DNA from: a virus
DNA: 23,327 nt
Direction: 5' to 3' (one strand)
Virus record (IMG/VR): IMGVR_UViG_3300037961_003782
Coordinates: 1-23,327 of that record
Shown here: one piece after another, positions 8,126 through 23,327 of the stretch
Layout: the number at the start of each line of letters is the position of its first letter
How positions within the stretch are numbered: the stretch's first letter is position 1
Made by a program: the position numbers and the translations under genes
The notes under the pieces: generated by a model
Seen by the model: only the letters and a program-made list of their open reading frames with translations
The model's database searches: none
Told to the model about the DNA's origin: nothing

Positions 8126-9472
8126 ATGGCAGTATTACAATCATCACAGATTACTGGTAAATTTGCAGTTACAGGTTCTCGTGACCAAACTTTAGTTCTT
8201 AAAGATTATGATACCACACAGCGTAACTCTTTACAAGCTGCTGCAGGTGCTATGATTTTTAACAACACTACAAGTGGTGTAGAATTTTATACAGGTAATG
8301 CTTGGTCCTCTGCTATAGGTAGAACAGGACAAACAGGCTTAACGGGTGCTAAAGGTTCTCAAGGTAATCAAGGTGCCAAAGGTCCTGCTGGTGCTGATAG
8401 TAACCAAGCGGGTGCTAAAGGTCCTACTGGCGATAAAGGTCCTCAAGGAGCAGCTGGTCATCAGGGTTTTCAAGGTGCTACTGGTCCTACTGGGAACCAA
8501 GGTCCCCAAGGTCCTCGTGATGGTAATAAAGGTGGGCAAGGTCCTCAAGGTGTTCAAGGAGCTACTGGTCCTGCTAACAATCAAGGTGGCGCTCAAGGTA
8601 TTCAAGGTGCTAAGGGTCCTCAAGGAGCAGCTGGTCATCAAGGATTTCAAGGTGCTACTGGTCCAGCTGGACATCAAGGATTTCAAGGAGCAGGTGGTAA
8701 CCAAGGTCCTAAAGGTCCTCAAGGAGTTCAAGGTTCTCAAGGTGGTAAAGGTCCACAAGGTGTGCAAGGTGCAGGTGGTCCACAAGGTGTGCAAGGTGCA
8801 GGTGGTCCTCAAGGAGTTCAAGGAGCAGGTGGTCCTCAAGGAGTTCAAGGTGCACCTGGCTGGCCGTATCAAGGTTGTAGTACAACTGATTCACCTCAAT
8901 TTGCTTACATAGCAGTTGGACACGCACAAACAGGTGGTGGTGCTTATAGGTGTTGGATTGATGCTGATTATGCTGTACATCACTCTCAAATATATTCACC
9001 TAATAACTATGGTATGAATGGTAGAGCAAACAGCGCTTGTATGCAATTAAATAATTTAAGTGCGCAAACACAATTCGCTTTAAACAATAGTGGTAATGTT
9101 TACGCAGCTGGTAATAGATATTCTGATGAAAGAAAAAAGGTACAAATAGAACAATATACAGGAAGTTTAGGAGCAGATGGAAATGTATCAGGTTCTATGA
9201 TGGATAGATTATCCACCTTAAAACCAAAGAAATTTAGATTTGTAGGACAGACGGATGAAAAACCAAGACAAGTTGGTTTGATAGCACAAGATGTTAGATT
9301 ATCGTTTCCTGAATTGGTAGATGCTAGTAATGACGGAACAGGAAGTTTAGGTGCTGAAGATTATATGGCAGTAAATTATGTCGGAGTAAATGCAGTTTTA
9401 TTAGAAGCTGTAAGAGAAATAAAAGATACAATTAGTTCAATTTCAAGTCGTGTAGCGACTTTAGAGGGATAA
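8126..9472 (+). CDS. Collagen-like fibre protein A with S74 chaperone (448 aa)
   Basis: ATG follows the previous stop with no gap, and the ribosome site (GAGAG) lies inside the end of the fibre gene, so translation is probably coupled. Residues 1-64 form a small head ending in 'FYTGNAWSS', a motif common before phage fibre stalks. Residues ~65-246 are Gly-X-Y repeats rich in GPQ, GPK and GPT, with interruptions such as GPRDGNKG and GPANNQGGAQG. A 9-residue unit (GPQGVQGAG) is repeated four times at the distal end. A globular tip (~247-330) follows. Ser333 and Lys338 sit in 'SDERKK', the S74 self-cleavage motif, followed by 'VGLIAQDV' and 'AVNYVGVNAVLLEAV'. The likely role is a trimeric collagen-like tail fibre or adhesin. 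Bacterial-type collagen needs no hydroxyproline, and no hydroxylase is seen here. Confidence 0.85.
   Translation: MAVLQSSQITGKFAVTGSRDQTLVLKDYDTTQRNSLQAAAGAMIFNNTTSGVEFYTGNAWSSAIGRTGQTGLTGAKGSQGNQGAKGPAGADSNQAGAKGPTGDKGPQGAAGHQGFQGATGPTGNQGPQGPRDGNKGGQGPQGVQGATGPANNQGGAQGIQGAKGPQGAAGHQGFQGATGPAGHQGFQGAGGNQGPKGPQGVQGSQGGKGPQGVQGAGGPQGVQGAGGPQGVQGAGGPQGVQGAPGWPYQGCSTTDSPQFAYIAVGHAQTGGGAYRCWIDADYAVHHSQIYSPNNYGMNGRANSACMQLNNLSAQTQFALNNSGNVYAAGNRYSDERKKVQIEQYTGSLGADGNVSGSMMDRLSTLKPKKFRFVGQTDEKPRQVGLIAQDVRLSFPELVDASNDGTGSLGAEDYMAVNYVGVNAVLLEAVREIKDTISSISSRVATLEG
8750..8857 (+). repeat. 27-base tandem repeat in collagen stalk, 4 copies
   Basis: Four head-to-tail copies encode GPQGVQGAG; the last copy ends GAP instead. 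Copies 1-2 share 'caaggtgtgcaaggtgcagg', while copies 3-4 use 'caaggagttcaagg', so at least two duplication steps or later drift occurred. The unit is in frame (9 residues), so copy-number change would alter stalk length without breaking the protein. Confidence 0.85.
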
Positions 9473-9476
9473 AGAA

Positions 9477-10847
9477 ATGGCAGTATTACAAGCTACAGAA
9501 ATATCAGGCTCAGTAACTTTAGGTGCGCCATTAGTAGTACCAAATATAAGTAACACAGCTATTGGTAACCTATCAGGTACTGAAACATCTTTGGTGGTAC
9601 ATAGTTCAGGTGATGGAGATTTATACAGGCACAACGGAAGTAGTGTAGTTCGTGGATTTGGTATTCAAGGTACGATAGGTGCTAAAGGTAATACTGGTCC
9701 AGGTGGTGTTCAAGGTTCTACTGGTCCTCAAGGGGCTCAAGGATTTCACGGAACTACAGGTAACCAAGGTCCTCAAGGAAACCAAGGTCCACAAGGTCCA
9801 CGAGATGGTAACAAAGGTCCTACAGGAAACCAGGGGGTACAAGGAGCTACAGGTCCAGCAAATAATCAAGGTGGTGCTCAAGGTCCAGCTGGTCCTAAAG
9901 GTCCTACTGGCGCAGCGGGTCATCAAGGATTCCAAGGCGCTAAAGGTCCTACTGGTAATCAAGGTCCACAAGGTCCACGAGATGGTAATAAGGGTGGGCA
10001 AGGTAATCAAGGTCCTCGAAGTGGTGCTAAAGGTCCTCAAGGAGTACAAGGTGCGACTGGTAACCAAGGTCCTAAAGGTCCTACAGGCGGAGGTGGTAAC
10101 CAAGGTCCTAAAGGTCCTCAAGGAAATACAGGTGGTAAAGGTCCTCAAGGAGTTCAAGGTGCTAAAGGTCCTCAAGGTAGTCAAGGTCCTAAAGGTCCAC
10201 AAGGTCCTTCAAGTACAAATCAATCTATGAGTGGTGGTGATGCACCAAGCTTTTTAAGATTCGCTATCAATTCAAATAGTTGGCCATCAAGTGGTAGATT
10301 TCACGTAGCTAGAGCTGTAACTGATGCTGTTATTTTTGCAAACAGCACACCAAATGGTTTAAGGGTTGATGGTGGTGGTAATGGTGCTAATATTATTCAA
10401 TGTTTAGGTCCTATCCCATCACCTGCAAACAGACATTGGGTTACCAATATAGGACAATATTACCATTCAGGAAATCGTTCTTCTGATGCTAGAATTAAAA
10501 AAGATATTGAAGAGTATTCTGGTAGTATATTAAATAACATAAATCAATTTAAACCAAAAACTTTTTTATGGAATACCGCTCCTGATAATGATGTTTCACA
10601 TCAAAGATTAGGATTTATCGCACAAGATTATACAGCATCTAAATTTAGCGAGCTAGTAGATCGTGGTGAATTAAAACCAGGAGAAACTAAATCAACTGAC
10701 CAGAAAATAACCGATGGTAATAAAGAATACTCAGGAAGTTTAGGTTTCAATTATGATGGAGCAGCTGCTATACTGATAAAAGCTGTATCAGAGAGTAAAG
10801 CTATATTAGATGATTTAAATGCGAGAGTAACCACTTTAGAGGGATAG
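9477..10847 (+). CDS. Collagen-like fibre protein B with S74 chaperone (456 aa)
   Basis: The ribosome site (GAGGG) lies in the last codons of gene A; the gap is 4 bases. A short head (residues 1-61) precedes Gly-X-Y repeats over ~62-246, with two GPRDGNKG breaks and one GPANNQGGAQG break. The globular tip (~247-330) differs from those of A and C. Ser336 and Lys341 in 'SDARIK' carry the S74 dyad, followed by 'RLGFIAQDY' and 'AAAILIKAVSES', ending in a short coiled coil (LNARVTTLEG). It has a longer insert (residues ~396-415) in the chaperone than A. It is a tandem paralogue of A and C with almost the same stalk length. The likely role is a trimeric fibre; whether it pairs with itself or with A and C is unknown. 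Confidence 0.85.
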   Translation: MAVLQATEISGSVTLGAPLVVPNISNTAIGNLSGTETSLVVHSSGDGDLYRHNGSSVVRGFGIQGTIGAKGNTGPGGVQGSTGPQGAQGFHGTTGNQGPQGNQGPQGPRDGNKGPTGNQGVQGATGPANNQGGAQGPAGPKGPTGAAGHQGFQGAKGPTGNQGPQGPRDGNKGGQGNQGPRSGAKGPQGVQGATGNQGPKGPTGGGGNQGPKGPQGNTGGKGPQGVQGAKGPQGSQGPKGPQGPSSTNQSMSGGDAPSFLRFAINSNSWPSSGRFHVARAVTDAVIFANSTPNGLRVDGGGNGANIIQCLGPIPSPANRHWVTNIGQYYHSGNRSSDARIKKDIEEYSGSILNNINQFKPKTFLWNTAPDNDVSHQRLGFIAQDYTASKFSELVDRGELKPGETKSTDQKITDGNKEYSGSLGFNYDGAAAILIKAVSESKAILDDLNARVTTLEG

Positions 10848-10848
10848 T

Positions 10849-12204
10849 ATGGCGATATTAAGAAATAATAGTCAAATTGCAGGAATTACATTATCAGCTG
10901 ATGGAAACAGCGCTGGTTTAGTTGTTAATAAAGTAACTAATACCGAAATGGGTCAGATATCTTCACCCACAAAAGGTGCTATTATTTACAACACAACTGA
11001 TAATCAGTTCTATAGATATACAGGTAATGCTTGGAGTTCACAACAAGGTGGGCAGGGTGCTGTAGGTGCTACTGGTCCTCAAGGTGATAAAGGTCCTACA
11101 GGTGTTCAAGGGGCTCGAGGTAATCAAGGTCCTCAAGGTGTGCAAGGTGCTATTGGAGTACAAGGTGCTACAGGTCCTGCGAACAATCAAGGTGGTGCTC
11201 AAGGTCCAGCTGGTCCTAAAGGTCCTACTGGCGCAGCGGGTCATCAGGGTTTTCAAGGTGCTACTGGTCCTACGGGAAACCAAGGTCCCCAAGGTCCACG
11301 AGATGGTAATAAAGGTCCTACTGGAAATCAGGGGGTACAAGGTGCCACGGGTCCAGCGAACAATCAAGGCGGCTCTCAAGGTCCTCAAGGTCCTGCTAAC
11401 AATCAAGGTGGTGCTCAAGGTCCTAAAGGTCCTCAAGGAGTTCAAGGTGCAGGTGGAAATCAAGGTGCTCAAGGCGTTCAAGGTGCTACTGGAAATCAAG
11501 GTCCAACTGGTCCTGGTGGTAACCAAGGTCCTAAAGGTCCTCAAGGAAATCAAGGTCCTCAAGGAGGAGGTGGTAACCAAGGTCCAAGGGGAGTTTCACA
11601 ACCAAGTAATAATTTAGGAACAGCACCTCAAGGTAGTTACGTTAACTTTACTAGAATAGGTTTAAATGTAGGTCCAACAAATCAAGGTGTAGATGCTAGA
11701 GGTGGTAATAACGCTGCTATATTTAGTTCAAATAATTCCAACTCAGGTGGTGGTTGGAGACAATATGTTAACTCCAACCCATACTCTTGGCAATTTAGAG
11801 GTGACCAAAATCCAGGAGTTACTCTACACTATTGGAAGAGTAACGGACAATTCTATCATAAGGGTAATATATCATCAGACCAAAATTTGAAAAAAGAAAT
11901 TACACCTTACACTGCATCTGTATTAGAAACAAAACTTGGTGCTAAACATAGAGCTAGTAGTTTTATTATGATTGGAAATGAAGTTTCTAAATCAGAGTGG
12001 ACTGCTTCATCTACAGATAAAGCAGAGATTGGGTTTATCGCACAACACTATACTGCTAGTGCACCAGAGGTTGTAGATATGGTAGATACAGGCTCTTTAG
12101 GCATACAAGAAAGAGGTGTAACTGCTATGTTAACTAAAGCGTTTCAAGAAATATCAGAATCGCTGACTAACCTTAATAATAGGATAAAAACTTTAGAAGG
12201 ATAG
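10849..12204 (+). CDS. Collagen-like fibre protein C with S74 chaperone (451 aa)
   Basis: The start is one base after the stop of gene B, with the ribosome site (GAGGG) inside gene B. The head (residues 1-66) ends 'GAIIYNTTDNQFYRYTGNAW', clearly related to the head of A. Gly-X-Y repeats span ~67-249 with three GPANNQGG(A/S)QG breaks and one GPRDGNKG break. A globular tip (~250-340) is followed by Ser343 and Lys348 in 'SDQNLK' (S74 dyad), then 'IGFIAQHYTAS' and 'GVTAMLTKAFQEIS', ending in a coiled coil. The S74 core is more divergent than in A. The stalk DNA is a patchwork of stretches shared with B and with A (see findings). It probably ends this unit, since a promoter-like site follows. Confidence 0.85.
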   Translation: MAILRNNSQIAGITLSADGNSAGLVVNKVTNTEMGQISSPTKGAIIYNTTDNQFYRYTGNAWSSQQGGQGAVGATGPQGDKGPTGVQGARGNQGPQGVQGAIGVQGATGPANNQGGAQGPAGPKGPTGAAGHQGFQGATGPTGNQGPQGPRDGNKGPTGNQGVQGATGPANNQGGSQGPQGPANNQGGAQGPKGPQGVQGAGGNQGAQGVQGATGNQGPTGPGGNQGPKGPQGNQGPQGGGGNQGPRGVSQPSNNLGTAPQGSYVNFTRIGLNVGPTNQGVDARGGNNAAIFSSNNSNSGGGWRQYVNSNPYSWQFRGDQNPGVTLHYWKSNGQFYHKGNISSDQNLKKEITPYTASVLETKLGAKHRASSFIMIGNEVSKSEWTASSTDKAEIGFIAQHYTASAPEVVDMVDTGSLGIQERGVTAMLTKAFQEISESLTNLNNRIKTLEG

Positions 12205-12243: not shown

Positions 12244-14568
12244 ATGGTTGTATACGATAACGGGTTTTATAAAATACATCTTGATTTTAATGATTCTTTT
12301 AGGCTAAACTTCGATACATATAATTTAGATGATGAATATAGTATTGAAGTTAGATATGGAGAAAAAGAATCTGAGCTAGAATCAATAAATTTTGATTTAT
12401 CAGAATCACATACTATTAATGGAGTTAAGAAATATTATATTGATTGGCACATTGAAGTATATGAAAATGGTAATAAAATTGTAGATTATGATTTAGATTT
12501 AGAAGATAAAGATGTTTTAATAGATTTTATTTCTAAAAATTTGGGAGACACTACAATGTGGATTCCATATGTTGAGGAGTTTAGAAAAAAACATAATTGT
12601 AATCTATATTTGTTAACTGTAAATCATAATCTATTCTTAGATGCATATCCGTTTATAACGTTTGTTTCACCAAAAGATACAATTCCAAATTCTTTTGCTA
12701 GTTACTATATTGGTCCGATGGATATTCCAAGAACAAATGGAAATCAAGTTGATAGATATCTACCGTTAAAAAGAGACAAAACTCATTTTCAAGAAATTTG
12801 TAGTAGTATTTTAGGATTAAAACACAAACCTAACTTAAAAGCTCCGTTAAAAGTCTACAAAAATTTTAAAAAGGTTACTGATAAACCATATGTTGCTATA
12901 GCACCACAAGCTACTGCCAGAATAAAAACTTGGAATTATAATGGAACTGAGGGTTGGCAATTATTAGTAGATTATCTTAAAGAGAAAGGATATGAAGTTT
13001 TATATTGTTCTAAGGAATACGATGGTGAACGTGGTTTTAAAATTCCAAAAGGAGTTATAGTAAAAGATTCAGATACTTCTATAGAAGAAAGAGTATTTGA
13101 TATACATCACGCTGAGTTTTTTATAGGAATAAGTTCTGGTTTATATTGGGTTGCTCACGCTTTGGGAAAACGTTGTATTATGATTACAGGACACACACAT
13201 AAATACTCTGATGGACACGATGAAAAAACAGAACGTGTTTCACTAGAAAGTAACTCTGATATCTGTACTGGATGTTGGGGTGATATAAGTCTTGATTGGC
13301 ACTTTGATAGTTGGTATTGTCCAAAACATCAAGAGGATGATTTTACTAATGAAGCAGATATGAGTGAGAGTTCAAGAAAGTGGGAGTGTACAAAAAGAAT
13401 TACTCCTCAAATGGTATTTGATGCAGTTGATAGGGTAGAATCTTTTACAAAAAAGGTAAAGGTAAAACAAGAAAACTTTATAAGTTTAGGTATTAATTTA
13501 GGACACGATGCTAGCGCAGCTTTGTGCGTGAATGGTGAACTTATTACTAATATAGCACAAGAGAGAATATCAAGAATAAAACACGATAAGAATGAGAATG
13601 AAATTCCAAAGCAAGCTGTAAAATATGTTTTACATAATTCTAATATTGACTTACATCAAGTAGATAAAATTGTTTACAATGGAGCTGGAGAGGGTTGGGG
13701 AACAAGATATGTTAACTCTCAACTAAAAAAGTTTGAGGATGCTAATTGGGGGATAGGTAAAATTACTTATGGATTACACCATTTAATGCACGCTTATTCA
13801 GCATATTATTATTTTGGTGGTGAAGAGGGCACTTCTTTAATTGTTGATAATGGTGGAGATGTTGGTTATAGTTGGAGAACCTCAAGAGAAAACTTTAGAA
13901 ATACAAACAATACTGAAGCAGAAAATGCATCGATATATGGAATAAAAGGTAATAAATTTGAAACCTTATATAAACACAATCACCAGTTTCTTGAACAAGA
14001 AGAAGATAGATTGGGATTTTCTTTAGGTGCATTTTATGATATTGCTTGTTCAATAACAGGCATAGGAAATGATGGATTTTCTGCTGGTAAGTTGATGGGG
14101 CTTACATCATATGGCGATGATAGTAAGTATTATGAAAAACTCTTACAGAAGTATATGTATGAGGAGTGTATCGTTATAGATAATAATGATTTTTATATAC
14201 CAAGAAATTATCATAATCAAATGTTACCAACTTGGAATGTTAATGGATTTTACAATTATAGAAACACTTGGTATAATATTAATTTAGAAAATTCAGAATT
14301 TCAAGATAAGGCAAACTTTGCTCTTTGGGTTCAAAAAGAATTTGAGAGAGCTATTATGTTTTTAGTTAAGAAAGCAAAGATATTAAATCCAAGTGATAAC
14401 TTGTATTTAGCTGGTGGTTGTTTTCTAAATTCAATAGTTAACCAAAAGATAACCGATAGTAATATATTTAAGAATGTACACGTGATACCTGCAGCAGATG
14501 ATACAGGTATAGCTATAGGATGTGCATACTATGGTTATTGGAATCAATTTCTACCAAAAAATAATTGA
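12244..14568 (+). CDS. TibC-like O-heptosyltransferase fused to N-terminal half of O-carbamoyltransferase (774 aa)
   Basis: Residues ~1-410 match bacterial autotransporter heptosyltransferases (TibC/Aah, GT9-like). There is an N-terminal beta domain, then 'LIDFISKNLGDTTMW' with Asp102 in the family's catalytic LGDT position, 'PYVAIAPQATARIKTWN', 'FFIGISSGLYWVAHALG', and four cysteines (341, 344, 359, 382) spaced like the family's iron finger, ending 'CTKRITPQMV'. Such enzymes transfer heptose from ADP-heptose to serines of repetitive beta-helix adhesins. Residues ~413-774 match the N-terminal Kae1-like domain of NodU/TobZ carbamoyltransferases: 'GINLGHDASAAL' (416-427), the metal-binding-type 'HHLMHAYSAYY' (512-522), 'LYLAGGCFLNSIVNQ' (720-734) and 'PAADDTGIAIGCAYYGY'. 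The usual C-terminal half is absent and lies in the next gene. The fusion is real within one open frame. Its target, protein or glycan, is inferred. Confidence 0.85.
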   Translation: MVVYDNGFYKIHLDFNDSFRLNFDTYNLDDEYSIEVRYGEKESELESINFDLSESHTINGVKKYYIDWHIEVYENGNKIVDYDLDLEDKDVLIDFISKNLGDTTMWIPYVEEFRKKHNCNLYLLTVNHNLFLDAYPFITFVSPKDTIPNSFASYYIGPMDIPRTNGNQVDRYLPLKRDKTHFQEICSSILGLKHKPNLKAPLKVYKNFKKVTDKPYVAIAPQATARIKTWNYNGTEGWQLLVDYLKEKGYEVLYCSKEYDGERGFKIPKGVIVKDSDTSIEERVFDIHHAEFFIGISSGLYWVAHALGKRCIMITGHTHKYSDGHDEKTERVSLESNSDICTGCWGDISLDWHFDSWYCPKHQEDDFTNEADMSESSRKWECTKRITPQMVFDAVDRVESFTKKVKVKQENFISLGINLGHDASAALCVNGELITNIAQERISRIKHDKNENEIPKQAVKYVLHNSNIDLHQVDKIVYNGAGEGWGTRYVNSQLKKFEDANWGIGKITYGLHHLMHAYSAYYYFGGEEGTSLIVDNGGDVGYSWRTSRENFRNTNNTEAENASIYGIKGNKFETLYKHNHQFLEQEEDRLGFSLGAFYDIACSITGIGNDGFSAGKLMGLTSYGDDSKYYEKLLQKYMYEECIVIDNNDFYIPRNYHNQMLPTWNVNGFYNYRNTWYNINLENSEFQDKANFALWVQKEFERAIMFLVKKAKILNPSDNLYLAGGCFLNSIVNQKITDSNIFKNVHVIPAADDTGIAIGCAYYGYWNQFLPKNN

Positions 14569-14619: not shown

Positions 14620-16131
14620 ATGAAAAAAGATGCTTACTTAGGAATGGTTTACTCTGATGAACAGATTATGGGTGCTATTCAAAAATATTGTGGTAATACA
14701 ACCGATCGTTTTGGTGGTATTAATATGACATACGAAAAGTGTTCAGAAAAAACATTGTATAAAAAAGTAGCTAAACTTATTGCAGAACAAAATATAGTTG
14801 GATGGTTTCAAGGTGCATCTGAAACAGGTCCTCGTGCATTGGGTAATAGAAGTATTTTGGCTGATGCTAGAAGTTTTAGAATGAAAGATAGAATAAACGA
14901 TTCGGTAAAACATAGAGAATGGTATCGCCCTTTTGCACCAAGTTGTTTAGAAGAAGAAGCTGATAAGTATTTTACACATAGTACAGATAGTCCTCATATG
15001 TTATTGATATCCGATGTAAAGCACGAGTGGAGAAGTAGATTACCAGCTATTACACATATAGATGGAACCGCCAGATTACAAACAGTATCTAAAAAAACTA
15101 ATCCAAGATATTGGAAACTTATAAACGAATTTAAAAATATAACAGGCATACCAGTTGTTCTAAACACATCTTTTAATGATAATGCACAACCCATCGTAGA
15201 ATCACCTGAAAATGCTATAGATTGTTTTGAAAATACTCAAATGGATTACTTAGTGATGGGTAATTACATTATAAGTAAGATGGATAGAAAATGGTATACC
15301 GATTACGTAAAGCCAAAAGATAGAAAGAGGAGAGTGGGCGTAGTTTGTTTTAGTTACAATCGTTCAGAGTACCTTGAGAAAACTCTCGATAGTTTAGTAA
15401 AAACAATGGATAAACGAGATAAACTATTTTTACTTGAACAATCATCCGATGCTGAAGAAAAGAAAAAGTGTTTGGAATTAACTTATAAGGCTGCTGAAAA
15501 AATAGATATTCAAATTATGGATATGCCGTATAATCTTGGATGTAGGTTAGGAACTAATAGAGTTTGGGAAACAGGATTCTTTGATGATTGTGAATATTAT
15601 ATGAATATAGACCACGATATGGTAATCAGAGAACCTCTAACTACAGGTGTAGAAAAGTTAGATTCATCACCTTACATTTGGATGGTTTCATATCATAATA
15701 GTCCTGAACACGATGTTAAAAATGTAGATGGTAATTGGGTGTTAAAAGACCATACACGTGGTTGTCATATGATGTTAAGAATAAAAGATTTTTTAGATAT
15801 GATGCCTATATGGATGCATCATAATGGTGGACACGATAATTTAAATTGGCACGGTGGTTTAGATTGGTACTTAATGGATTACTCAGAGGTAGCTCCTGGT
15901 CCTGATATAAAAGAGATAATAGCAGTTTTGCCTGGCGCAAGTGAACATATAGGAAGAGATTCAGCTTGGCAAGGAGATTACGATGATGAGTATAGTGATG
16001 AAGTACAAAATTTATTTTTTAAAGCACAGAATGTAGAAGAGTTGTTAGAGTTTTACAGACCCGATAAGGTTTACGATGATGAATCTTATTGGTATGAGGA
16101 GGTGTATGCGGATATTATTAACAGGAGGTGA
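14620..16131 (+). CDS. C-terminal half of O-carbamoyltransferase fused to GT-A glycosyltransferase (503 aa)
   Basis: The start follows a weak TAGGA site. Residues ~1-222 match the C-terminal domain of NodU/TobZ-type carbamoyltransferases: 'DAYLGMVYSDEQI', 'GWFQGASETGPRALGNRS' (61-78), 'KDRINDSVKHREWYRPFAP', 'ITHIDGTARLQTV', 'GIPVVLNTSFNDNAQPIV' and 'MDYLVMGNYII'. This is the half missing from the preceding gene; together they give ~585 residues, about the normal length of the single-chain enzyme. Residues ~238-503 resemble a GT2-type GT-A glycosyltransferase: a starting strand 'VGVVCFSYNRSEYLEKTLDSL', a DxD motif (Asp331-His-Asp333) after 'YYMNI', and 'GGLDWYLMDY' later. Donor and acceptor cannot be read. 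The two fused halves could join both sugar transferases in one complex (inference). The last 26 bases overlap the start of the epimerase gene. Confidence 0.85.
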   Translation: MKKDAYLGMVYSDEQIMGAIQKYCGNTTDRFGGINMTYEKCSEKTLYKKVAKLIAEQNIVGWFQGASETGPRALGNRSILADARSFRMKDRINDSVKHREWYRPFAPSCLEEEADKYFTHSTDSPHMLLISDVKHEWRSRLPAITHIDGTARLQTVSKKTNPRYWKLINEFKNITGIPVVLNTSFNDNAQPIVESPENAIDCFENTQMDYLVMGNYIISKMDRKWYTDYVKPKDRKRRVGVVCFSYNRSEYLEKTLDSLVKTMDKRDKLFLLEQSSDAEEKKKCLELTYKAAEKIDIQIMDMPYNLGCRLGTNRVWETGFFDDCEYYMNIDHDMVIREPLTTGVEKLDSSPYIWMVSYHNSPEHDVKNVDGNWVLKDHTRGCHMMLRIKDFLDMMPIWMHHNGGHDNLNWHGGLDWYLMDYSEVAPGPDIKEIIAVLPGASEHIGRDSAWQGDYDDEYSDEVQNLFFKAQNVEELLEFYRPDKVYDDESYWYEEVYADIINRR

Positions 16132-20192: not shown

Positions 20193-20681
20193 ATGCCAGA
20201 CGTTTTATCAGCACAAGAAATATTTTTTACAACCTTTGAACCAAAGGTTAAAAATAGGTATATATGGTACATTGACGGAGTACCATCTTTCTTAGTAAAA
20301 GCTGCAAGTCGTCCAAGTGTACAGTTTGAAACTATCACACTAGACCATATCAATGTAAAGAGATACCTAAAAGGTAAAGCAGCTTGGCAACCAATCGAGT
20401 TGACACTATACGATCCAATCGTTCCAAGTGGCGCTCAATCAGTTATCGAGTGGATTCGTTTGTCTCACGAATCTGTAACAGGTCGTGATGGATATGCAGA
20501 TTTTTATAAAAAAGATGTAACATTTAATATGTTAGGTCCAACAGGTGATATTGTTGAAGAGTGGCAATTAAAAGGCACTTACATATCACAAGCTAATTGG
20601 AATACTTTAGAATATCAATCAAATGAAGTTGCTGATATCACAATTCAGTTAACTTATGATTACGCAATACTTAACTTCTAA
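20193..20681 (+). CDS. gp19: Tail tube protein, gp19-like (162 aa)
   Basis: The start follows TTGGAGA. Length is almost the same as T4 gp19 (163 residues). Features fit the contractile-tail tube family: 'NRYIWYIDGVPSFLVKAASRPSVQFETI', 'HINVKRYLKGKAAWQPIELTLYDPI', 'VIEWIRLSHESVTGRDGYADFYKKDVTFNML' and the final 'ADITIQLTYDYAIL'. It stacks as hexameric rings to form the inner tube around which the sheath assembles and through which DNA passes. Its place directly after the sheath gene agrees with this. The only separating elements are a terminator and a new promoter-like site, which may set the ratio of sheath to tube. Confidence 0.93.
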   Translation: MPDVLSAQEIFFTTFEPKVKNRYIWYIDGVPSFLVKAASRPSVQFETITLDHINVKRYLKGKAAWQPIELTLYDPIVPSGAQSVIEWIRLSHESVTGRDGYADFYKKDVTFNMLGPTGDIVEEWQLKGTYISQANWNTLEYQSNEVADITIQLTYDYAILNF

Positions 20682-20911: not shown

Positions 20912-21652
20912 ATGGCTAATAGTAGCTTCCCTACGGAATTTGTAGACTTACCATCTCAAGGGCATTTTTACGCAAAAGATAACCCATTGTCAAGTGGTAA
21001 GGTAGAGATAAAATATATGACGGCAAAAGAAGAGGATATTCTTACGTCAGTCAATCTAATCCAACAAGGTACAGTCTTAGATGTTTTGTTAAAAGAACTC
21101 ATCGTAGATAAAAGTATTGACTTAGATACAATGTTGTTAGGTGATAAGAACGCACTTTTTATTAGTGCAAGAATTTTAGCGTATGGTAATGATTATGAAT
21201 TTAGTGTTGGTAATGAAACAGGCAAAGTAGATTTATCACAAATAAAAGCTAAAAAAGTAGATTTTTCTAAATACAAAAAAAATGTAAATACTTTTGAGTA
21301 TGAGATTCCATCTGCTAAAAGAAAATTAACTTACAAATTGTTAACTCAAGCTGATGATTCAAAGATTCGTGAAGAAATAGAATCTCTTAAAAAAGTAGGA
21401 ATGAGTGTTGATAGAGAAGTTAGTACAAGACTTAAATACCTTATAACTTCAGTAGATGAAAAAACTGATAAAAGTTACATAAATAATTTCGTTGATAACG
21501 AATTCTTATCACGAGATACACTTGCTTTCAGAAAACATATAATTAATATGACACCTGATTTAGATATGGAAGTTGAAGCTGAAATGTCAAGTGGAGAAAG
21601 GAGAAAGATAACGGTCCCGATGACCGTTTCGTTTTTTTGGCCTCAAACCTGA
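20912..21652 (+). CDS. Baseplate hub/tail assembly protein, T4 gp26/gp51-like (246 aa)
   Basis: The start follows CAAGGA at good spacing. The N-terminus 'FPTEFVDLPSQGHFYAKDNP' and 'LSSGKVEIKYMTAKEEDILT' is characteristic of the T4-type baseplate protein family annotated gp26 in marine T4-like phages. These proteins act in tail or baseplate hub assembly; some may be chaperones and not virion parts. The middle is mixed alpha/beta with 'ALFISARILAYGNDYEF', and the C-terminus 'ITVPMTVSFFWPQT' ends just after a T7 run. Within that run a change of frame would replace the last four residues by a 65-residue extension (next entry). Its position between tube and tape measure is that of tail assembly chaperone genes in many phages. 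The exact T4 counterpart (26 or 51) is uncertain. Confidence 0.75.
   Translation: MANSSFPTEFVDLPSQGHFYAKDNPLSSGKVEIKYMTAKEEDILTSVNLIQQGTVLDVLLKELIVDKSIDLDTMLLGDKNALFISARILAYGNDYEFSVGNETGKVDLSQIKAKKVDFSKYKKNVNTFEYEIPSAKRKLTYKLLTQADDSKIREEIESLKKVGMSVDREVSTRLKYLITSVDEKTDKSYINNFVDNEFLSRDTLAFRKHIINMTPDLDMEVEAEMSSGERRKITVPMTVSFFWPQT
21610..21638 (+). promoter_or_regulatory. Hairpin and T7 run: candidate frameshift site
   Basis: AACGGTC (21610-21616) pairs perfectly with GACCGTT (21622-21628) around a 5-base loop. Three bases later comes a run of seven T (21632-21638), read as TTT TTT T in the gp26-like frame. Slipping +1 (or -2) keeps TTT-TTT pairing and enters the downstream frame. An AAGGAG sequence (21598-21603) lies upstream. 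An upstream hairpin is unusual for -1 sites but compatible with other shift types. Confidence 0.5.
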
Positions 21653-21836
21653 TGATTCGGTAAACATACACGAAGAAATATTTCAACTAATCTTTAACAC
21701 CAATGGCGGCTTTACATTTAGAGACTGCTATAATCTACCCACCTATCTAAGAAAATTCTATCTTAAAAGAACTATAAAAGAATATAATGATAGAAATGCT
21801 GAAATTGAAAAACAGCATAAACAGATTCAAAAGTAA
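21624..21836 (+). CDS. Start-less extension frame of gp26-like protein, probably made by frameshift
   Basis: This frame is open for 70 codons from just after a TGA at 21621 and ends at TAA 21834-21836. It contains no ATG, GTG or TTG before the part that looks conserved. The product would read 'FFGLKPDDSVNIHEEIFQLI', then 'GGFTFRDCYNLPTYLRKFYL' and a charged helical tail. Plausible amphipathic, Asp/Glu/Lys-rich composition and the 'GGF...LP-x-x-L-R-x-F-Y' pattern suggest real coding. If reached by a +1 slip at the T7 run it extends the gp26-like protein to about 307 residues (308 for -2). This mimics G/GT-type tail assembly chaperones. A sequencing error of one T would give the same picture. 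Confidence 0.6.
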   Translation, partial: PFRFFGLKPDDSVNIHEEIFQLIFNTNGGFTFRDCYNLPTYLRKFYLKRTIKEYNDRNAEIEKQHKQIQK

Positions 21837-22150: not shown

Positions 22151-23327
22151 ATGGCAGATAATCTAAATGATACCAAAGATATTGTAGCAGAATTAGAAGA
22201 ACTTCTTGGTAAGAGTGTTGAACACGCTAAGAAGTTACCTATGTTTATGCGCAAATTATTGGGCATAACTGATGAAGTGGTTCAATTAGAGGAAGAAATA
22301 GCTAGGTTGAAAGAAGAGGGTGCTGAAGCGGCTGATGAAGAAACTGATTCTACAAAGAGAGGTATTGAAGGAAAACAGGCTGCTAGAGATTTGATACAAG
22401 GGCAACTACAATTTATGAGTGGATTTGTAGACCAATCTAAAGCTGCTGTAGCTACAATAACTAGGATGGTTGGAGGATTGGGTTTTGTAAATGCGGTATT
22501 GCTTGGAATAGTAGCTTACGCTGCTGATTTCTTACGAACTATGAGTAAAGTACGTGAGGAAATTGGTGGTAGTGTATTACAAGCAGCTGAACTGGCAGTG
22601 GAAATTCAAAGAGCACAAAGATTTAGTGCTTTACTATTCTTTGATGGTGAGTTAGTTAGAAAAACTGCTAAAGCTATTGTAGATGAATTTGGTACATTAA
22701 ATGCAGTTACTGCTACAAGTGTACAAAACATAGGTGAATTTGCAAAGTTAAGTGGCGCTAGCGTAACCGATGTTGTTAAGTTAGCCAGATTGTTTGATAC
22801 GTTAGCTATAAGTTCAGAGGATGCTGCTCAAAATCTAAAAGATGCATCGTTTGAAGCGGGTATATTAGTAGACCAGGCTTTTAATGAAATAGCAACTCAA
22901 GCAGAATTTTTTGCTACATTTACAGACGAGAGTGCTAAAAATATTCAGAACGCTTTAGTGTTTGCAAAACAATTAGGAACCACGTTAGAAGCTACAAATA
23001 GAATATCAGAAAAACTTCTTGATGTTGAAAGTGCTATAACAAATCAATTTAAGTTATCAGCTATACTTGGTAGACAAATAAATGTAGAGGAAGCTATAAG
23101 ATTAAACTTTCTTGGACAAACAGACAGAGCTCAAGAGGTAGTAGTTTCACAAATTAGACAGGCGGTTGCTGAGTTAGGTGGATTTAATAGATTATTACCT
23201 ATACAAAGAAGAGAATTAGCTACAACATTTGGACTAACTGTTCCTGAATTATTAAAAGTAGTAAGTGCAGATGTAGGTGGTACTGCTATAGGCGCAGTTG
23301 GAAGAACATCCGTACCTTTACAAGTTC
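22151..23327 (+). CDS. Probable tail tape measure protein, 3'-truncated (first 392 aa)
   Basis: The start at 22151 follows a TTGGA site. The frame stays open to the window end, so the protein is longer than 392 residues. The first ~100 residues are acidic and coiled-coil-like (VVQLEEEIARLKEEGAEAAD). A hydrophobic, membrane-type segment lies at about residues 108-128 (GGLGFVNAVLLGIVAYAADF). A long Ala-rich helical region follows, including 'INVEEAIRLNFLGQTDRAQE' and 'RRELATTFGLTVPELLKVVS', a pattern I associate with tape-measure-like structural proteins of T4-like marine phages. Tape measure proteins set tail length and leave through the tube on infection. Position after sheath, tube and gp26-like genes agrees. 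A different large virion protein cannot be excluded without the rest. Confidence 0.65.
   Translation, partial: MADNLNDTKDIVAELEELLGKSVEHAKKLPMFMRKLLGITDEVVQLEEEIARLKEEGAEAADEETDSTKRGIEGKQAARDLIQGQLQFMSGFVDQSKAAVATITRMVGGLGFVNAVLLGIVAYAADFLRTMSKVREEIGGSVLQAAELAVEIQRAQRFSALLFFDGELVRKTAKAIVDEFGTLNAVTATSVQNIGEFAKLSGASVTDVVKLARLFDTLAISSEDAAQNLKDASFEAGILVDQAFNEIATQAEFFATFTDESAKNIQNALVFAKQLGTTLEATNRISEKLLDVESAITNQFKLSAILGRQINVEEAIRLNFLGQTDRAQEVVVSQIRQAVAELGGFNRLLPIQRRELATTFGLTVPELLKVVSADVGGTAIGAVGRTSVPLQV

Follow-up and report, generated by a model that had tools for sequence, protein, structure and literature searches.

A virus represented by the IMG/VR record IMGVR_UViG_3300037961_003782 very likely uses a programmed +1 frameshift to make two forms of a tail assembly chaperone of the T4 gp26 type from a single gene. 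Our analysis covered the first 23,327 nucleotides of this record, hereafter called the window, together with homologous genes from other phages, and the slip site, the frame of the extension, their conservation, the associated hairpin and the homology described below were read from these sequences.

A gp26-like gene followed by an open frame without a start codon

The zero-frame product of the gene, or short form, is matched over residues 5-243 by the PHROG_150 'baseplate hub' family in a profile search (E 4.2e-6), whereas Pfam and NCBIfam returned nothing useful for either the short form or the extension. The gene is placed between the tail tube gene and a candidate tape measure gene (Table 1), which is the location characteristic of tail assembly chaperones (TACs). 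Its 3' end reads ACG GTC CCG ATG ACC GTT TCG TTT TTT TGG CCT CAA ACC TGA. The extension, in the +1 frame, begins GGC CTC AAA at 21639 and consists of 65 codons and a TAA, with no ATG, GTG or TTG among them; 42 bases separate its end from the next ATG (21879). The −1 frame is shut after 8 codons in the window, and thus the site does not conform to the X_XXY_YYZ arrangement of −1 frameshifting.

Table 1. Features of the window that bear on the proposed frameshift (positions in window numbering)
Feature	Position	Strand	Evidence
Tail tube protein	20193-20681	+	Phage_T4_gp19, E 3.4e-7; phrog_4542, E 2.4e-26
gp26-like short form (zero frame, 246 aa, ending SFFWPQT)	20912-21652	+	PHROG_150, homologues, AlphaFold2 model
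Upstream RNA hairpin: 7-bp stem (21610-21616/21622-21628), 5-nt loop CCGAT	21610-21628	+	Synonymous-recoding test
Candidate +1 slip site TTT TTT TGG (T7 run 21632-21638)	21632-21640	+	Site counts and variants in 148 sequences; distant variants
Zero-frame TGA ending the short form	21650-21652	+	Stop 5-12 codons past site start in 83/83
+1-frame extension, 65 aa, GLKPDD...QIQK (TAA 21834-21836)	21639-21836	+	pN/pS; cyanophage profile match
Probable tape measure protein, start (runs off the window)	22151-23327	+	23% identity, E 3e-8, to annotated tape measure of Flavobacterium phage immuto

A first-pass annotation of the same DNA had described a gp26-like gene ending just past TTTTTTT, an open frame of 65 codons that lacks a start, looks coding and stops 42 bases before the next gene, and a perfect 7-bp hairpin 3 bases upstream of the T run. 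The gene end was confirmed base by base, and the open frame and the hairpin were likewise found as described.

Several other features of the window were recorded. An N run at record position 23328-23337, just past the window end, breaks the probable tape measure gene, and because of this assembly gap the length of the tape measure cannot be read. Three fibre-like genes lie in tandem (8126-9472, 9477-10847 and 10849-12204); in the first, which was the only one searched, a Peptidase_S74 chaperone domain and collagen repeats were detected, and the other two seem similar on visual inspection. The N- and C-terminal domains of a carbamoyltransferase are found in adjacent ORFs (12244-14568 and 14620-16131), reflecting either a split gene or a sequence break, and in the first of these ORFs the carbamoyltransferase part is fused with a glycosyltransferase family 9 domain.

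Conservation of the site and the extension

A scan of IMG/VR yielded 80 homologues of the short form with 46-58% identity. These homologues, as well as the genes of Flavobacterium phage immuto and Microcystis phage Mel-JY01, are all organized like the window (83/83): a site rich in T and C is followed, 5-12 codons from its start, by a stop in the zero frame, and the extension occupies the +1/−2 frame. The first-pass annotation had proposed conservation of the T run, the zero-frame stop and the extension frame among relatives as a check, and the alignment bears this out for the slip site, the stop and the frame. Given that all 83 sequences retain this open frame in conserved form, we consider the 65-codon open frame to be more than a chance occurrence, for which the estimate from stop-codon frequency at 36% GC is approximately 1% for a lone stretch of this length.

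Further scans widened the set to 148 such sites, with Bacillus phage SP-15 as an addition. The sites read TTTTTTTGGCCT (73 sequences), TTTTTTTACCCT (41), TTTCTTTGGCCT (16) and TTCTTTTGGCCT (13), and there are five singletons. What is kept is thus a T/C-rich site; the T run itself, whose conservation had also been anticipated, is broken in TTTCTTT (16) and TTCTTTT (13). The same +1 plan recurs in distant phages, with TTT TTT CAC in SP-15, TTC TTT CGT in GXN1 and TTT CTA TTC in a 484-kb phage. Six of the eight matches to genome assemblies are in metagenome bins named Bacteroidota.

The extension, as judged from close pairs of sequences, is under strong purifying selection in its own frame, with a pN/pS of 0.07 and 880, 374 and 2390 substitutions at codon positions 1, 2 and 3, respectively, which backs the impression that it is coding. 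It is joined in frame to the slip site regardless of where the zero-frame stop lies (5 to 12 codons). Site, stop and extension together form the sequence signature of short and long products with a common N-terminus, and segment 21639-21836 very probably constitutes the C-terminal domain of the long form. In immuto (L082, 3836-3946) and Mel-JY01 (L083, 3743-3979), small genes annotated as hypothetical overlap the extension or form part of it.

An upstream hairpin conserved beyond its coding sequence

The perfect 7-bp stem in the window stops 3 bases 5' of the T run. Its predicted stability stands out when the encoded peptide is recoded synonymously (z −2.77, p 0.004), and is only moderate against dinucleotide shuffles (z −1.52). 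Across 93 non-redundant homologues, the 33 nt located 5' of the site have a mean z of −2.16 against synonymous recodings drawn from codon usage pooled across the family, and 74 of the 93 fall below −1; three control windows farther upstream give z values of −0.15, −0.19 and +0.20, and the 45 nt downstream of the site reach only −0.82. A predicted fold of −5 kcal/mol or lower that ends within 4 nt of the site is present in 109 of the 148 sequences. The stems vary in sequence and register among subgroups, and the signal is seen both in the TGG subgroup (z −1.82) and, with other stems, in the TAC subgroup (z −3.18). Because the register shifts between subgroups, a fixed-column covariation scan of the hairpin found no helix over threshold, and the recoding test was used instead. 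The hairpin is thus conserved beyond its coding role and is probably part of the signal. The duplex near the P site that lies upstream of the RF2 slip site therefore has a counterpart here in the hairpin, and not in a Shine-Dalgarno (SD) duplex.

We think it unlikely, although worth keeping in view, that, next to a real frameshift, the hairpin has no stimulatory role and arises incidentally from a peptide repeat (TVPMTV). Two Thr-Val codon pairs do create the hairpin in the window, upstream structure is weak in three homologues (L048, L049 and L054) and in SP-15, and GXN1 (L085) has none. However, the excess of structure was measured against recodings of the same peptides, it holds in subgroups with other stems, and it becomes non-significant where the frameshift is lost. 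Published work with designed hairpins in 70S and 80S systems indicates that upstream hairpins stimulate +1 and attenuate −1 frameshifting, and that downstream hairpins do the reverse (PMC6321510).

Proposed mechanism and direction of the shift

From these features we infer that slippage occurs, with an efficiency that leaves the majority of ribosomes to terminate at the TGA at 21650 and release the short form. A minority would move by +1 on the pyrimidine-rich TTT TTT TGG, where a peptidyl-tRNA on [T/C]TT would re-pair with the overlapping TT[T/C]; in the window, P-site tRNA-Phe would re-pair from UUU to the UUU one base on, and GGC would be read next. Decoding of GGC CTC AAA and the codons that follow would then add the 65-residue extension and produce the long form. 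The 7-bp hairpin, on refolding behind the ribosome 2-3 nt from the site, would most likely push or hold the ribosome forward, an effect that we liken to that of the SD duplex at the RF2 site.

A codon capable of +1 re-pairing ([TC]TT_T or TTT_C) is available at every site examined. In L011, L055 and L084, re-pairing is possible at the first codon only, and therefore the slip codon appears not to be fixed and may differ between lineages. The codon in the A site encodes an amino acid (TGG in most sequences, otherwise TAC, CAC, CGT or TTC) and is neither a stop nor clearly rare; TGG is used 11.9 times per thousand codons in the genes of the window. The CCT codon that follows the site was also considered as a place for slippage, given that it is nearly invariant. 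This candidate was rejected: because the base after CCT is variable and the proline is retained in paralogues that have no frameshift, the conserved CCT looks like a feature of the protein.

The first-pass annotation had left the slip as '+1 or −2', and while the programmed frameshift that it proposed is supported, the −2 option fares poorly. A −2 slip at the same site would enter the same frame with one extra residue (SFFFGL in the window), it could re-pair at most sites (TTTTTTT) and would suit the second codon of TTT TTA in L011 well, and phage Mu is named as a user of −2 slippage in a passage of a 2016 review (PMC5009743). At TTC TTT TGG (13 sequences) and TTC TTT CGT (GXN1), however, it would put tRNA-Phe on UCU, and a hairpin on the upstream side should hinder a backward slip (PMC6321510). 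We consequently regard a −2 slip as improbable.

Relatives with a −1 frameshift

A related set of 85 genes, from phages S-PM2, P-SSM2, HTVC008M, phiM12 and LG08 and from 80 cyanophage-like IMG/VR loci, carries an in-frame T_TTT_TTC (83 genes) or T_TTT_TTT (2 genes) at the end of gp26, with the extension located in the −1 frame. No ATG is present in the first 12 extension codons in 30 of the 85. In S-PM2, P-SSM2, HTVC008M and phiM12, the annotation treats the extension as a gene of its own, named 'gp51' or 'baseplate hub assembly catalyst'. The annotated 57-aa 'gp51' genes of S-PM2 (L110, 1291-1464) and P-SSM2 (L111, 1318-1491) fit a −1 extension of gp26 with a downstream hairpin.

RNA structure in these −1 relatives is found downstream of the site (z −2.54) and not upstream (z −0.01). 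The side on which structure is located thus goes with the direction of the shift, given the upstream signal in the +1 set and the downstream signal in the −1 set, a pattern that fits the work on designed hairpins (PMC6321510). We see about an even chance that this is a natural family in which an upstream mRNA hairpin has replaced the SD duplex of RF2 as the driver of +1 slippage, and in which the direction switches with the side of the stimulator at a homologous site. The ribosomes of Bacteroidota hide their anti-SD sequence. If the hairpin-driven reading is true, the use of a hairpin would be explained by the presence of many relatives in Bacteroidota bins, where the anti-SD is hidden.

Lineages that have lost the frameshift

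In a phylogenetic tree, the −1 sequences form one clade (support 100/98), and two lineages that lack the frameshift are nested inside the +1 clade. In one of these (L151 and L152), the short gene has TTC TTC TGG, and in L151 a full-length, in-frame long paralogue comes next. In the other (L177 and L182), an ORF that is separate from the short gene and starts at an ATG of its own encodes the extension; L177 is without a slip codon, and L182 keeps CTT_T with the extension in another frame. The upstream hairpin is non-significant in L151, L152, L177 and L182 (z −0.91, −0.72, +0.31 and +0.39, respectively).

The adjacent short and long gp26 paralogues of L151 (1501-3170, IMG/VR), with their inactive-looking slip site that is shared by L152, look like a duplication independent of the one represented by T4 genes 26 and 51. 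A further arrangement was noted in a 595-kb phage (L086, LR756511), where an extension-like ORF in the −1 frame has its own ATG overlapping the stop (TAATG), which suggests coupled translation.

These lineages bear on whether the extension could be a separate small gene, translated by reinitiation or from a non-ATG start near the zero-frame stop. An own ATG at or after the stop does exist in L177, L182 and LR756511, and the cyanophage 'gp51' is annotated as a gene in this manner. Against this, no ATG occurs in the first 12 extension codons in 145 of the 148 sequences, none of ATG, GTG or TTG occurs in the first 22 in 119, and, wherever the stop lies, the frame stays tied to the slip site. Moreover, the nested lineages with an own ATG combine a non-significant hairpin with an altered site or frame relation. 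A separate gene is thus very improbable. An extension with its own start codon, which had been named in advance as a finding that would speak against the frameshift, does occur, but it is confined to a single huge phage that is very distant and to derived lineages within the +1 clade in which the slip site or its frame relation is gone too.

Polymerase slippage on longer homopolymer runs is known, and the site in the window is a homopolymer, but neither such slippage nor misassembly of the T7 run can readily explain a frame that is kept in 148 sequences, is maintained where TTTCTTT (16) and TTCTTTT (13) cut the run to 3-4 T, and differs at the same place in the −1 relatives.

Homology to T4 gp26 and gp51

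Profile comparisons connect the family to T4 through the cyanophages. Over 270 columns, the fused +1 and −1 forms can be aligned, and their slip sites coincide (E 4.5e-15), the +1 extension matches the cyanophage extension (E 5.7e-8), the latter matches the C-terminus of T4 gp51 (E 7.8e-11), and T4 gp26 and gp51 are themselves paralogues (E 5e-20); reversed controls gave no matches in these comparisons. Directly compared, the window family and T4 gp51 give a weak match (probability 9.5%), and therefore the link to T4 gp51 rests on the cyanophages. PHROG_150, which covers positions 10-236 of T4 gp26 and 3-281 of gp51, found the cyanophage and T4 genes, whereas our profile A1 missed them.

The AlphaFold2 model of the short form has a pLDDT of 92 and is matched by predicted viral proteins named baseplate hub subunits. 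A sequence search of solved structures found no relative, and a Foldseek search of the PDB with the short-form model returned nothing significant. The best two of 760 solved chains were YqbN (3klu; Z 5.3, 81 residues), which we take to be a protein of the tail assembly chaperone type, and the HK97 TAC (2ob9; Z 4.9, 76 residues), with Z scores that are low in absolute terms. The resemblance of the predicted fold to these two proteins is suggestive only.

The first-pass annotation had raised the idea that gp26-like proteins act in the manner of the lambda G/GT chaperones, and this gains support from the homology to cyanophage gp26 and 'gp51' and, through these, to T4 gp26 and gp51. The tape measure and tube proteins would probably be the targets of the short and long forms, as they are of gpG and gpGT in lambda.

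Comparison with known systems

Chaperone genes of T4-like phages, including the T4 gp26/gp51 pair, were reportedly identified by Vladimirov, Gautam and Davidson in 2022 (Virology 566:9-15). The PRFect paper (PMC10885494) cites that study where it mentions phages that have a short gene and a fused long one, and the phage Adele paper (PMC12846349) refers to it on poly-T sites for −1 slippage among T4-like phages. Both the T4 gene pair and these −1 sites are therefore already in the literature. In its section on the G-T frameshift, a 2016 review describes it as widely conserved, T4 excepted (PMC5009743). In a literature search confined mostly to openly accessible papers, we came across no description of the +1 clade, of an upstream hairpin serving as a natural signal, or of the additional duplication seen in L151.

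The window gene shares with T4 the PHROG_150 family, short and long forms with a common N-terminal part, and a probable role in hub or tail assembly. However, T4 has two paralogous genes, 26 (short) and 51 (long), where the window has one gene and a probable +1 frameshift. The −1 genes of S-PM2, P-SSM2, HTVC008M, phiM12 and LG08 have homologous forms and a homologous T-rich site at the end of gp26, but differ in their T_TTT_TT[C/T] heptamer, their direction, their downstream structure and their lack of an upstream hairpin. Lambda gpG/gpGT and other −1 TACs, as outlined in part of the 2016 review (PMC5009743), agree with the window in the location between tube and tape measure and, as predicted here, in having two products and a shift near the end of the short ORF. 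Here the shift would instead be +1, no sequence homology between the window family and lambda gpG was found, and the fold resemblance is weak and restricted to the HK97 TAC and YqbN.

According to the review's passage on RF2, CUU_U is the RF2 (prfB) shift codon and UUU_U is used by a small minority of RF2 genes (PMC5009743). Both systems would thus have a P-site CUU_U or UUU_U that re-pairs one base on, with an upstream duplex near the site, although RF2 relies on an internal SD duplex and a UGA in the A site, whereas the window has an mRNA hairpin and a sense codon. Listeria phages PSA, A118 and A500, along with HSTV-2, also have a +1 shift in a phage structural or assembly gene; in the literature consulted, the Listeria phages slip on the proline codon CCC close to a stop or a pseudoknot, and no upstream hairpin is described for them.

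Implications

If these interpretations are correct, a single family has taken four routes to a short and a long chaperone, namely a slip by +1, a slip by −1, paired genes and a gene split in two, and where nested lineages can do without slippage, its signal has degenerated. The family would also offer a test, provided by nature, of how RNA structure on either side of a slip site determines which way the ribosome moves, a question addressed with designed hairpins in the work consulted. Annotations are corrected as well, since many marine phage genomes lack the extension in their annotation or list it as a gene of its own, either 'gp51' or hypothetical. The cultured phages Flavobacterium immuto and Bacillus SP-15 make the frameshift testable: in immuto, the predicted junction peptide is VSFLGLTPEYR if the +1 shift takes place at CTT_T, VSFFGLTPEYR if it takes place at the first TTT_C, and VSFLFGLTPEYR if the shift is −2.
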